Source of the DNA: Bacteroidaceae bacterium
GTDB taxonomy: Bacteria; Bacteroidota; Bacteroidia; Bacteroidales; Bacteroidaceae
Length of the DNA: 51,943 nt
Direction of reading: 5' to 3'
Assembly: GCA_017466325.1 (NCBI GenBank)
Contig: JAFTUK010000006.1
Span: 1 to 51,943 of the forward strand
Numbering within the stretch: the stretch's first letter is position 1; each line of letters opens with the position of its first letter. Below the pieces are notes generated by a model. That model saw only the letters and a list, made by a program, of their open reading frames with translations. It ran no database searches and had not been told where the DNA came from. The position numbers were made by a program, and so were the translations under genes. Of the stretch, positions 8,970 to 42,330 are shown piece after piece.

Positions 8970-9677
8970 ATGAAATTCAATCGTATCTTACTGAAACTCT
9001 CCGGCGAAAGCCTGGCAGGAGAGCAGAAACAGGGCATCAACACCGAGCGTCTCAACGACTATGCCCGCCAGATCAAGGAAATTGCCGAGATGGGAGTGCA
9101 GATAGGCATTGTCATCGGTGGAGGCAACATCTTCCGTGGCCTTACCGGAGCAGGCAAGGGCTTTGACCGCGTGAAGGGCGACCAGATGGGCATGTGTGCC
9201 ACGGTTATCAACTCCCTGGCACTGAGCAGTGCCCTTGGTGCAATCGGGCAGAAGAACCGCGTGCTTACCGCCATCCGCATGGAGCCTATCGGCGAGTTCT
9301 ACACCAAGTGGAAGGCCATCGAGGCCATGGAACGCGGCGAGGTTGTCATCATGAGTGCAGGCACAGGTTCTCCCTACTTTACCACCGACACGGGTTCCTC
9401 CCTGCGTGGCATAGAGATAGAGGCCGACGTGATGCTGAAGGGAACCCGTGTGGACGGCATCTACACCGCCGACCCCGAGAAGGATCCCACCGCCACCAAG
9501 TTCCAGGACATCACCTATCAGGATGTCATTGCCAAGGGCCTGAAGGTCATGGACATCACCGCCACCGCCATGTGCATGCAGAACGACCTCCCCATCTACG
9601 TCTTCAACATGGACATCGTGGGCAACCTGAAGAAGGTAATCTCCGGCGAGGACATCGGCACTCTGGTGCACAACTAA
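8970..9677 (+). CDS. pyrH: UMP kinase
   Basis: A 235-aa hexameric kinase that phosphorylates UMP to UDP. The sequence opens with RILLKLSGESLAG, the usual PyrH N-terminus, followed by IGIVIGGGNIFRG and the GTGSPYFTTDT motif. It has no close relationship to NMP kinases of the adenylate kinase fold. It is the last gene of the dnaE run and starts 24 bp after birA. A strong hairpin with a T-run follows at 9790-9860. pyrE, a second pyrimidine gene, lies at 16216 on the opposite strand and is separately controlled. Confidence 0.97.
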   Translation: MKFNRILLKLSGESLAGEQKQGINTERLNDYARQIKEIAEMGVQIGIVIGGGNIFRGLTGAGKGFDRVKGDQMGMCATVINSLALSSALGAIGQKNRVLTAIRMEPIGEFYTKWKAIEAMERGEVVIMSAGTGSPYFTTDTGSSLRGIEIEADVMLKGTRVDGIYTADPEKDPTATKFQDITYQDVIAKGLKVMDITATAMCMQNDLPIYVFNMDIVGNLKKVISGEDIGTLVHN

Positions 9678-9789
9678 CATTGGGAGTTGAGCGATTGACG
9701 TCTGAATCACAACAAGGACGACATTACGCCCGTTTAACTCAAATCGGCCATTAGTGCGCAACAGCCTAATGACCAATTGGACTTTAACC

Positions 9790-9860: not shown

Positions 9861-9922
9861 TACCCTACCGCCTACCCTATCCATCACGGGTAGTACACTT
9901 TGCCTTATCAAGCCCCCATTCC

Positions 9923-10003
9923 GTCCTCGGTGGCGGTAAATCTCATCGCCACTGGCGGTGAACTTTATCGCCGAGGGCGGCTCATTTTACCGCCACCGAG
10001 GGC
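9923..10003 (+). repeat. Cloverleaf palindromic repeat, copy A
   Basis: A perfect 16-bp outer stem (CCTCGGTGGCGGTAAA at 9925-9940 with its complement at 9986-10001) encloses two small hairpins, CGCCACTGGCG at 9947-9957 and CGCCGAGGGCG at 9969-9979. A related element in inverted orientation lies at 27708-27786. Size, palindromy and intergenic position recall REP/BIME elements, but I cannot name the family. Confidence 0.75.
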
Positions 10004-10119
10004 TCGGGAAGGGGTTCGGGAGGACAAAACGGTATTGCCGTTCGCCCTATTCCAGATTTTCATGATTCCTTTGCCTGTTTTTTAACTCGGCGATGGGGTG
10101 GCATGTCACAAATTATTCT

Positions 10120-26801: not shown

Positions 26802-27628
26802 TGTCTCCTATCGGTATCTTCGACAGCGGTTATGGCGGATTGACCATCTTACGGACAATCCGCCAACTCATGCCCCAATATGACTACCTCTATTTGGGTG
26901 ACAATGCGCGTACCCCATATGGCACACGCAGTTTTGAGGTAGTGTATGAATTCACCCTTCAAGCCGTACGCCGGCTGTTTCAGGAAGGTTGTCCCTTGGT
27001 CATTTTGGGCTGTAATACAGCATCAGCCAAGGCACTCCGTACCATCCAGCAGAATGATTTGCCGCAGATTGACGCTTCGCGACGCGTCCTTGGCGTCATC
27101 CGCCCCACAGCAGAATGCATCGGAGACATCACGCAGACACGCCACGTAGGCATTTTTGCCACACCAGGAACCATACGCTCGCACACCTATGATCTGGAAA
27201 TAGCCAAGTTACATCCAGACATTAAGGTTACGGGGGTCGCATGCCCCATGTGGGTTCCTCTAGTGGAGAACAATGAGGCGCACATGCCAGGTGCCGACTA
27301 TTTCATCAAGCAGAAGATAGAGGAATTACTTACCTTGGATCCACAGGTGGACTCCGTTATACTCGGGTGCACGCACTACCCTCTGCTCATGGACAAGATA
27401 GTGCAACACATGCCTTCCGGCATAAAGGTAATACCCCAGGGAGATTATGTTGCCACAAGCCTGCAGGATTACCTCCGGCGCCATGCCGACATGCAAAGTC
27501 GGATTTCCCAGTCAGGCACCCTGCGACTGCTTACCACGGAACAACCTGAGCAGTTCAACGAAAGTGCCACTATTTTCCTTGACCATCCCGTTGAAGCAGA
27601 GAAAATAACATTATCCCAAATCACATAG
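26801..27628 (+). CDS. murI: Glutamate racemase
   Basis: A 275-aa cofactor-independent racemase that makes D-glutamate for peptidoglycan. The two catalytic cysteines are C71 in LGCNTAS and C190 in ILGCTHYPL; the N-terminal FDSGYGGLT holds D8. Length and layout are normal. Its ATG shares a base with the TAA of the previous gene (TAATG), so it is read by coupled translation after the ompH genes. It ends the envelope block; no clear terminator follows, but the cloverleaf repeat copy B starts 80 bp later. Confidence 0.97.
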   Translation: MSPIGIFDSGYGGLTILRTIRQLMPQYDYLYLGDNARTPYGTRSFEVVYEFTLQAVRRLFQEGCPLVILGCNTASAKALRTIQQNDLPQIDASRRVLGVIRPTAECIGDITQTRHVGIFATPGTIRSHTYDLEIAKLHPDIKVTGVACPMWVPLVENNEAHMPGADYFIKQKIEELLTLDPQVDSVILGCTHYPLLMDKIVQHMPSGIKVIPQGDYVATSLQDYLRRHADMQSRISQSGTLRLLTTEQPEQFNESATIFLDHPVEAEKITLSQIT

Positions 27629-27707
27629 CCTGCAAATCATACAGAAATACGGACAAAGAGATAACGCTGCCAGCAATGGGAAAAACCATGCCGAGCAGCA
27701 TATTTTG

Positions 27708-27786
27708 TCCTCGATGGCGGTAAAATGAACCGCCAAGGGCGGTGATTCTTATCGCCAGTGGCGGTAAAGTTCATCGCCACCGAGAA
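27708..27786 (-). repeat. Cloverleaf palindromic repeat, copy B
   Basis: Same plan as copy A at 9923-10003 but inverted. The outer arms are CTCGATGGCG (27710-27719) and its near-complement at 27775-27784, with one mismatch. They enclose CCGCCAAGGGCGG (27730-27742) and CGCCAGTGGCG (27753-27763). It lies in the gap between the convergent murI and radical SAM genes. Confidence 0.75.
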
Positions 27787-27887
27787 CGGGAAAACTGGTC
27801 GATAAAGTCTCGCTAAGATTCATGTAAGGATAAGTATGAACGTAATTAGCAATTCAAAGAATGATTACAGCATCCTTACCCAATACC

Positions 27888-32475: not shown

Positions 32476-32694
32476 AGGACCCCCTCAATCCCCCTGTAGG
32501 GGGAGGAGAGGGGGAGCGGAATTTGGAGTAATCGGAGTAGTCTGAATAATCTGAGTAATCCGAATAATCCGATTTTTGTTTTCCGTTTTCATCTCCAGTT
32601 GTAACTACTCCCTCCCATACAGGGGAGGGCTGGGGAGGGGTCTGCTCTCTCCCTTGTGGGAGGGATGGGGAGGGGTCCTCCCTTTTCCGTTCCC
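32476..32694. repeat. Repeat-rich gap between sufB and sufC
   Basis: Several repeat types share this gap. At 32525-32572 five and a third 9-bp units (consensus NGARTAATC) run in tandem. At 32481-32515 and 32608-32680 lie G-rich/C-rich inverted repeats with two G-quadruplex-capable tracts on the plus strand (32622-32640 and 32658-32675). GTTTTCCGTTTTC at 32579-32591 and CTTTTCCGTTCCC at 32682-32694 belong to the heptamer class. No gene is evident. Confidence 0.6.
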
Positions 32695-41918: not shown

Positions 41919-41979
41919 TGTTGTCGTATCAACACTGCCCTGTTGTCGTATCAACACTGGCCTGTTGATAGTACAACAC
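41919..41979. repeat. Three palindromes at 22-bp spacing
   Basis: TGTTGTCGTATCAACA occurs at 41919-41934 and 41941-41956, and TGTTGATAGTACAACA at 41963-41978. Each is TGTTG-N6-CAACA, and the third is nearly the reverse complement of the first two. The spacing is exactly 22 bp, about two helical turns. It could be a tandem operator or a minisatellite. Confidence 0.75.
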
Positions 41980-42330
41980 AAACATGACATCATGGCGAGG
42001 TATAATGGAATTACTGGATATATGAGCAAAAATACATTTACCATTAGGAGTTTCTTGAAATAAAACTCTATCTTTGTGGCAAGAAAAGAAATACCAAATA
42101 CAAACCCATTAACAAGACATCTTTGCCTATGAAGCATAGCGTATAGTCAGATACGCACATTTAGACATATTGGAAAAGCGTTTTAGCTTTATTCTGCATT
42201 CCGAAAGTTTGGCGACTAATGGATACTGAACCTTGCCATCGACAAACGTGTGAGACTGTTTCATGGCGACAGGTTCTCCATAGGTCAGACTACATTCACA
42301 TATATCGAACACTATACATAATTATATATA
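41980..42330. other. Gap before argS without a recognised gene
   Basis: Apart from the -7 box at 42069-42076 and the resulting leader of about 250 nt, nothing is recognised. A 61-codon minus frame at 42127-42312 lacks any supporting feature. Confidence 0.5.
42069..42076 (+). promoter_or_regulatory. Promoter -7 box upstream of argS
   Basis: TATCTTTG matches TAnnTTTG exactly, 254 bp before the argS ATG. A weaker CATCTTTG lies at 42118-42125. If used, argS has a long leader. Confidence 0.5.

Follow-up and report, generated by a model that had tools for sequence, protein, structure and literature searches.

Bacterial palindromic repeats are named by their sequence, and their known mover, the RAYT transposase, reads sequence tags. 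BOX elements of Streptococcus pneumoniae, which constitute a single family, combine a pair of end modules with inner modules that vary in number. Plasmid iterons, located at one replication origin, are direct and usually non-palindromic repeats with a spacing of about 22 bp, i.e. two helical turns. Porphyromonas gingivalis belongs to the same order as the source of the DNA studied here. The BrickBuilt MITE of this species is described as an intergenic, species-restricted element with predicted stem-loops, present in 19 copies and built from 1 to 22.8 units of a 23-nt tandem repeat with inverted-repeat ends (PMC4596501). It is accompanied by a leader of up to 285 nt and a tail of up to 318 nt, for a whole length of up to 991 nt (PMC4596501). 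BrickBuilt is one sequence family, and the main text of that report contains no word beginning with "palindrom" (PMC4596501).

The window, i.e. the whole stretch of 51,943 nucleotides that was analysed, comes from a Bacteroidaceae genome (G000) whose assembly is 88% complete. It holds two elements of a repeat that we call family A, whose unit is the imperfect palindrome GGCGRT-N7-AYCGCC followed by a 3-bp linker, and one array of an unrelated sequence family:

8970 to 9677, + strand: ORF upstream of element 1, putative pyrH as judged by eye
9923 to 10003, no strand assigned: family-A element 1, three 22-bp palindromic units within inverted caps (model match 9922-10004)
9925 to 9940, + strand: left arm of the perfect 16-bp terminal inverted repeat of element 1 (cap and first arm)
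9932 to 9950, + strand: core of unit 1 of element 1, GGCGGTAAATCTCATCGCC, 0 mismatches to the unit pattern
9954 to 9972, + strand: core of unit 2 of element 1, GGCGGTGAACTTTATCGCC, 0 mismatches to the unit pattern
9976 to 9994, + strand: core of unit 3 of element 1, GGCGGCTCATTTTACCGCC, 2 mismatches to the unit pattern
9986 to 10001, - strand: right arm of the perfect 16-bp terminal inverted repeat of element 1
27707 to 27787, no strand assigned: family-A element 2, between convergent ORFs ending at 27628 (+) and 27888 (-)
27716 to 27734, + strand: core of unit 1 of element 2, 1 mismatch
27738 to 27756, + strand: core of unit 2 of element 2, 0 mismatches
27760 to 27778, + strand: core of unit 3 of element 2, 0 mismatches
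41921 to 41986, no strand assigned: array of an unrelated family (TTGTCGTATCAACACTGCCCTG; the TTGTCGTATCAACA family), three units with a 22-bp period

Element 1 is formed by three tandem copies of the unit, spaced by 22 and 22 bp and joined by the linkers ACT and GAG, inside an inverted repeat whose caps are GTCCTCGG and CCGAGGGC; element 2 follows the same plan. The perfect outer stem of 16 bp that a preliminary description of this DNA had claimed is found at 9925-9940 and 9986-10001, and the cap columns are conserved across an alignment of 29 copies. The same description had recognised the second element and its plan, but its limits of 27708-27786 are now replaced by 27707-27787, which is the model match at 27706-27788 minus one flanking base on each side. 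It had also read two separate hairpins within the outer stem. These inverted repeats are real, but they are the product of a 22-bp tandem array of palindromes, in which any arm can pair with several others; neither this unit nor the many unrelated arrays of the same period in the genus had been perceived. The units abut via 3-bp linkers, so that the unique spacers between identical repeats that define a CRISPR array are absent, and the copies, of ~81 bp with short caps, have no leader or tail segments around the repeats. By eye, some copies perhaps have longer shared flanks. Just upstream of element 1, at 9733-9778, lies a second dispersed repeat with the inverted arms GGCCATTAG and CTAATGACC; similar stretches match the genomes G088, G139, G094 and G150, and adjoin family-A copies at loci L004 and L022.

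Family A is a dispersed intergenic palindrome family of G000, as had been anticipated, with at least 56 distinct sites and none of 43 loci lying within an ORF of at least 120 aa. The unit pattern, with up to 3 mismatches, gave 336 and 369 matches on the two strands of G000, against 127 and 114 for the reversed control. A pattern of two units matched 105 times in G000 and not at all in a set of 60 other genomes that included 36 from the same genus; with 3 mismatches allowed, it matched 118 times in G000 and once or twice in each of 8 out of 398 other genomes of the taxonomic family, a draw that did not include G093 and G088 and in which the reversed control matched in 4 genomes, once 11 times. 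The covariance model returned 113 strand-wise matches in G000, corresponding to the figure of at least 56 sites (150 of 1088 candidates scored), and, with 150 candidates scored per genome, 2 sites in G093, 6 in G088, a weak one in G069 (E 5e-4) and none in six further relatives. In G061, a single unit-like match was observed, with no second unit in the surrounding stretch read. Named genome contigs yielded 0 stretches with the element, in a search from which the window's own and near records were possibly excluded. Three units are present at 30 of the 43 loci and four at 10, and one, two and five units occur once each, with L004 and L022 set to three units by hand, their fourth unit having 3 mismatches. 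With regard to genes, 23 loci are tandem, 16 convergent and 2 divergent, and 2 are without assigned context. The asymmetric centre unit makes the elements directional, and their direction is unrelated to that of the genes (7 versus 6 in tandem contexts, with one undecided). In addition, family-A elements lie at or near contig ends of G000, at the starts of C43 (1-51) and C50 (3-44) and at the end of C49 (66912-66972). Since two contigs start and one ends in an element or within a few bases of it, the repeat seems to break the assembly.

Folding is stronger than expected by chance. The stretch 9918-10008 reached -30 kcal/mol as single-stranded DNA, compared with -14.0 (sd 2.4) for its shuffles (z -6.8; 0 of 200 as good), and element 2 as RNA gave z -5.8, with 0 of 200 shuffles as good. 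One long nested hairpin is the preferred fold of element 1 as DNA, of element 2 as RNA and of the consensus of the 29 three-unit copies. The three-armed cloverleaf put forward in the preliminary description is rejected as the preferred fold, given the nested hairpin in both single folds and in the consensus, and the lack of covariation support. The alignment used for covariation (A1) is made of paralogous copies and leaves out L004 and 13 loci with other unit numbers. In this alignment, standard pairs amount to 88.1% in the nested structure versus 88.0% after shuffling, and 10 of its pairs show double changes versus 7.6 (56 of 500 shuffles as high). The cloverleaf arms show 0 double changes versus 1.5 in shuffles, the inner nested arms 3 versus 2.2, and the separate hairpins 1 versus 3.1. 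Taken as a whole, compensatory changes in family A are at chance level, and none of the nested, cloverleaf or separate-hairpin structures is clearly above shuffles. In one copy, both ends read GGCGCC; the G093 orthologue retains one of them intact and all but one base of the other. The presence of only two copies, together with a lack of compensatory changes, had been named as grounds to abandon a repeat family: the copies are far more numerous, and compensatory changes are indeed lacking among those tested. The idea that the shape is kept rather than the sequence finds no confirmation in compensatory changes within family A; it is supported instead by the arrays of the genus that are unrelated in sequence and share the 22-bp geometry. 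A search of the window against Rfam returned only a tRNA above the gathering score and nothing at the elements.

The arrays of the genus come from a de novo search of 1.54 Mb, sampled from 28 of its genomes, in which tandem repeats with periods between 12 and 60 were first detected and then scored for palindromicity; as three units are required, arrays of one or two units escape this search. The unrelated arrays share the palindromic layout at 22 bp and differ freely in sequence. Among 79 palindromic arrays, 41 have a period of 22, 9 of 23 and 5 of 44, and a period of 22 is found in 41/79 palindromic arrays versus 3/148 clearly non-palindromic ones (p 1.4e-19), a contrast that leaves out the 69 genus arrays with scores of 2.5-4.5, 11 of them at 22 bp. 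When counted by sequence family, the figures are 17/39 versus 3/94 (p 2.6e-8). When each stretch was resampled once with a first-order Markov model, 0 palindromic arrays at 22-23 bp appeared. An array with a period of 22, 23, 44 or 46 is present in 20 of the 28 genomes, and none was seen in the other 8 within the stretch sampled. The sequences of the 22-bp arrays are mutually unrelated (TTGCTTCATCGCGATGAAGCAA, AGGTTAACCATTATTGCCAAAT, AGTTTCCTCATTGGGAAACTCG and more; the palindromicity cut was lowered to 3.5 for the listing of sequence families and for gene-context counts), and after extension 55 of 67 arrays have at most three and a half units. In G088, which is 88% identical to G000 at the ORF upstream of element 1, the version encountered is AGCSGT-N7-ACSGCT with ATC or ATT linkers, which has the 22-bp spacing and a sequence unlike that of family A; one G088 copy retains a GTCCTCGGT cap. 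Other tandem repeats were also observed. Among non-palindromic arrays, period 14 forms a peak of its own (27/148 in the genus sample); several of these, among the 12 of 27 listed, are heptamer-like repeats such as CTCACCG and TTTTCCG. Window examples start at 142 and 30458. At 32521-32574 lies an 18-bp palindromic tandem repeat of the GGAGTAATC type, through which an open reading frame runs, and similar 18-bp arrays occur in G093.

Outside the genus, 251 kb from other genera of the same family, not chosen by content, contained one array at 22 and one at 44. Other families of the order, sampled over 627 kb, yielded 19 palindromic arrays, none of them at 22 bp and 1 at 23 bp, and 200 kb of E. 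coli K-12 contained 0 palindromic arrays. In this sample, the class is thus dense in the genus and sparse in the family; further out, it is rare at most, with a family limit that is not sharp, because two period-22 arrays below the palindromicity cut (scores of 4.1 and 3.2) were found in other families of the order. A query holding the 8970-9677 ORF matches 132 of 139 genus genomes, G000 included.

The arrays are mostly intergenic and biased to convergent gene ends. With genes taken as longest-ORF calls, made with no gene finder, ORFs of at least 150 aa are overlapped by 7 of 67 arrays, and ORFs of at least 70 aa, some of which may be spurious, by 17 of 57. Of the 62 arrays in gaps between the longer ORFs, 26 are in convergent gaps versus 14.7 expected by length (p 0.0015), 27 in tandem gaps versus 32.0, and 9 in divergent gaps versus 15.4 (p 0.08).

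The arrays turn over between sister species and are associated with synteny breaks. These comparisons, for which a still looser palindromicity cut of 3.0 was used, were made with G093, a sister of G000, to which its aligned segments are ~90% identical. Of 77 edges of orthologous alignments, 4 have arrays in both genomes, 13 in G000 only, 8 in G093 only and 52 in neither. All 4 shared edges have arrays of different sequence, two of them sharing one G093 array, and 4/77 orthologous gene ends with arrays in both sisters, versus ~2.7 expected, is not a significant site preference. Downstream of the 8970-9677 ORF, for instance, family A is present in G000 and the TTGTCGTATCAACA family in G093; the latter is also that of the window's array at 41921-41986. 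Of the 23 G000 arrays on the contigs that were compared, 2 fall within aligned shared sequence. An array within 500 bp, in either genome, accompanies 13/21 synteny breaks versus 2/19 variable collinear gaps (p 0.001), a contrast that counts paired edges of one junction separately, becomes weaker if 2 shared arrays join the collinear side, and is confounded by the draft state of the genomes and by long dispensable gaps, in which arrays and breaks alike may accumulate. Both family-A elements of the window are at synteny breaks. Three further family-A sites were compared with six relatives. The flanks of L019 are on different contigs in 5 of 6 relatives, i.e. wherever both flanks were found, and the same holds for L015 (5 of 6). 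At L017, four relatives (G093, G094, G088 and G061) retain the gene order, their intergenic gaps being ~185-390 bp long, and two (G004 and G085) do not. The gaps at L022 and C11:117425 are too diverged from G093 to be aligned, and show no readable target duplication and no clean empty site. Separately, a four-unit array with inverted caps GTTCCGTG and CACGGAAC is located at C15:72973-73166 (L117) of G093, where the gap in G000 is a few bases long. The arrays may be a cause, rather than a correlate, of the breaks.

We propose, with a probability of roughly 0.5, that family A is a REP/MITE-like non-autonomous intergenic DNA repeat. Its arrays would be copied or inserted by a putative machinery recognising hairpin or cruciform DNA in 22-bp steps, would survive mainly at gene 3' ends, where they would do little harm, and would decay neutrally and then be replaced; while present, they may act as, or mark, points of recombination and rearrangement. 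The occurrence of the same 22-bp spacing in quite different sequences points to shared copying or binding machinery. A length of 22 bp is about two helical turns, so that, with this period, dyad axes recur every 11 bp on one face of the helix, as would suit a protein reading palindromic or cruciform DNA in two-turn steps. A geometry that stays fixed while the sequence varies freely, together with single-family bursts in each genome, decay and replacement, fits a generator better than selection on each array. More tentatively, it can be surmised that the arrays constitute an intergenic class defined by geometry only, present in the whole genus and sparsely in the family, with about three palindromic units of 22-bp period in dozens of unrelated sequences, continually gained and lost and marking rearrangements, which would imply a putative machinery that would write or copy such arrays by a 22-bp ruler, whatever their sequence.

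The mobility that we propose could be thought to be that of classical REP/BIME elements moved by a RAYT (Y1) transposase, as the preliminary description had envisaged. The part of that likeness which stands is the high-copy intergenic palindrome, and a Y1_Tnp match does occur in 10 of 22 genus genomes. However, PF01797 (Y1_Tnp) had 0 matches in G000 (88% complete), which is one of the 12 genomes without it, and the search for a RAYT partner thus came out negative, in a setting in which the control search matched 5 of 14 named genomes. There were likewise 0 matches in nine genomes, themselves incomplete, that carry arrays of the 22-bp class in the stretches sampled (G093, G088, G085, G004, G151, G012, G024, G160 and G126), and neither GTAG nor CGTC is found in the consensus of the 29 copies, CGTC occurring only as a variant in single copies. 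This explanation is therefore very improbable, and no candidate for an array-making enzyme was found. It is also rather unlikely that the arrays are scars of repair, in which template switching or slippage at breaks would build palindromic arrays with no dedicated enzyme: such a process would agree with the arrays at 13/21 synteny breaks and with the freedom of sequence, but it leaves unexplained the dozens of dispersed copies of one family, the single value of 22 bp and the lack of a 22-bp peak in other families of the order.

Functions under selection must also be considered. Hairpins acting as bidirectional terminators or as 3'-end RNA structures, which would stop or protect transcripts between convergent genes, would account for the convergent bias, and terminator-like matches lie inside the elements (1 of 3 near element 1 and 2 of 2 near element 2). 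Yet these matches, with stems of 5-6 pairs, have T tails that are interrupted, the 3 and 2 found comparing with shuffled means of 0.8 and 0.5, and the 29 copies carry no compensatory signal. Neither an orientation bias in tandem contexts nor a conservation of arrays at orthologous gene ends beyond chance is observed, and the folding of an RNA gives no reason for a strict 22-bp period in the DNA, so that we attribute a low probability to this function. Phased operators, on which dimeric DNA-binding proteins of nucleoid or regulatory type would occupy palindromes every two helical turns, a spacing comparable to that of plasmid iterons, would make good use of palindromic units whose dyads, every 11 bp, put all sites on one helix face. 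Such a role is nevertheless difficult to reconcile with the rarity of family A between divergent genes (2/41) and with the turnover between sisters, and, as each genome holds several unrelated sequences, many different proteins would be needed; we regard it as improbable. Under the preferred reading of a non-autonomous DNA repeat, a class whose sole constant is a 22-bp palindromic period raises the question of what measures that distance. As arrays already differ between sisters at ~90% identity, the making or moving of arrays should be visible among strains of a single species, and the link to synteny breaks suggests that arrays help to reshape chromosomes in this genus.

When compared with known systems, family A is modular, as are BOX elements, from which it differs in host phylum and in module sizes. 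Its spacing is like that of iterons, but these are direct repeats at one origin and family A is palindromic. With REP, BIME and REPIN elements, it shares short palindromes, high copy number, intergenic location and turnover at the species level, and it differs from them by the lack of a GTAG or CGTC tag and of a RAYT in the genome, and by its fixed 22-bp tandem period (PMC3733652). The literature covered, which includes PMC4596501, PMC3733652 and PMC8040213 and extends to few subscription papers, contains no report of a class of 22-bp palindromic arrays in Bacteroidales. Within these sources, BrickBuilt is the nearest described element: family A is likewise an intergenic, species-restricted tandem repeat with predicted stem-loops, a unit of near-identical length (22), a variable number of units and inverted-repeat ends. 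Family A is distinguished from BrickBuilt by its length of ~81 bp, its short caps, its usual number of 3 units, and a geometry that is common to many sequence families.
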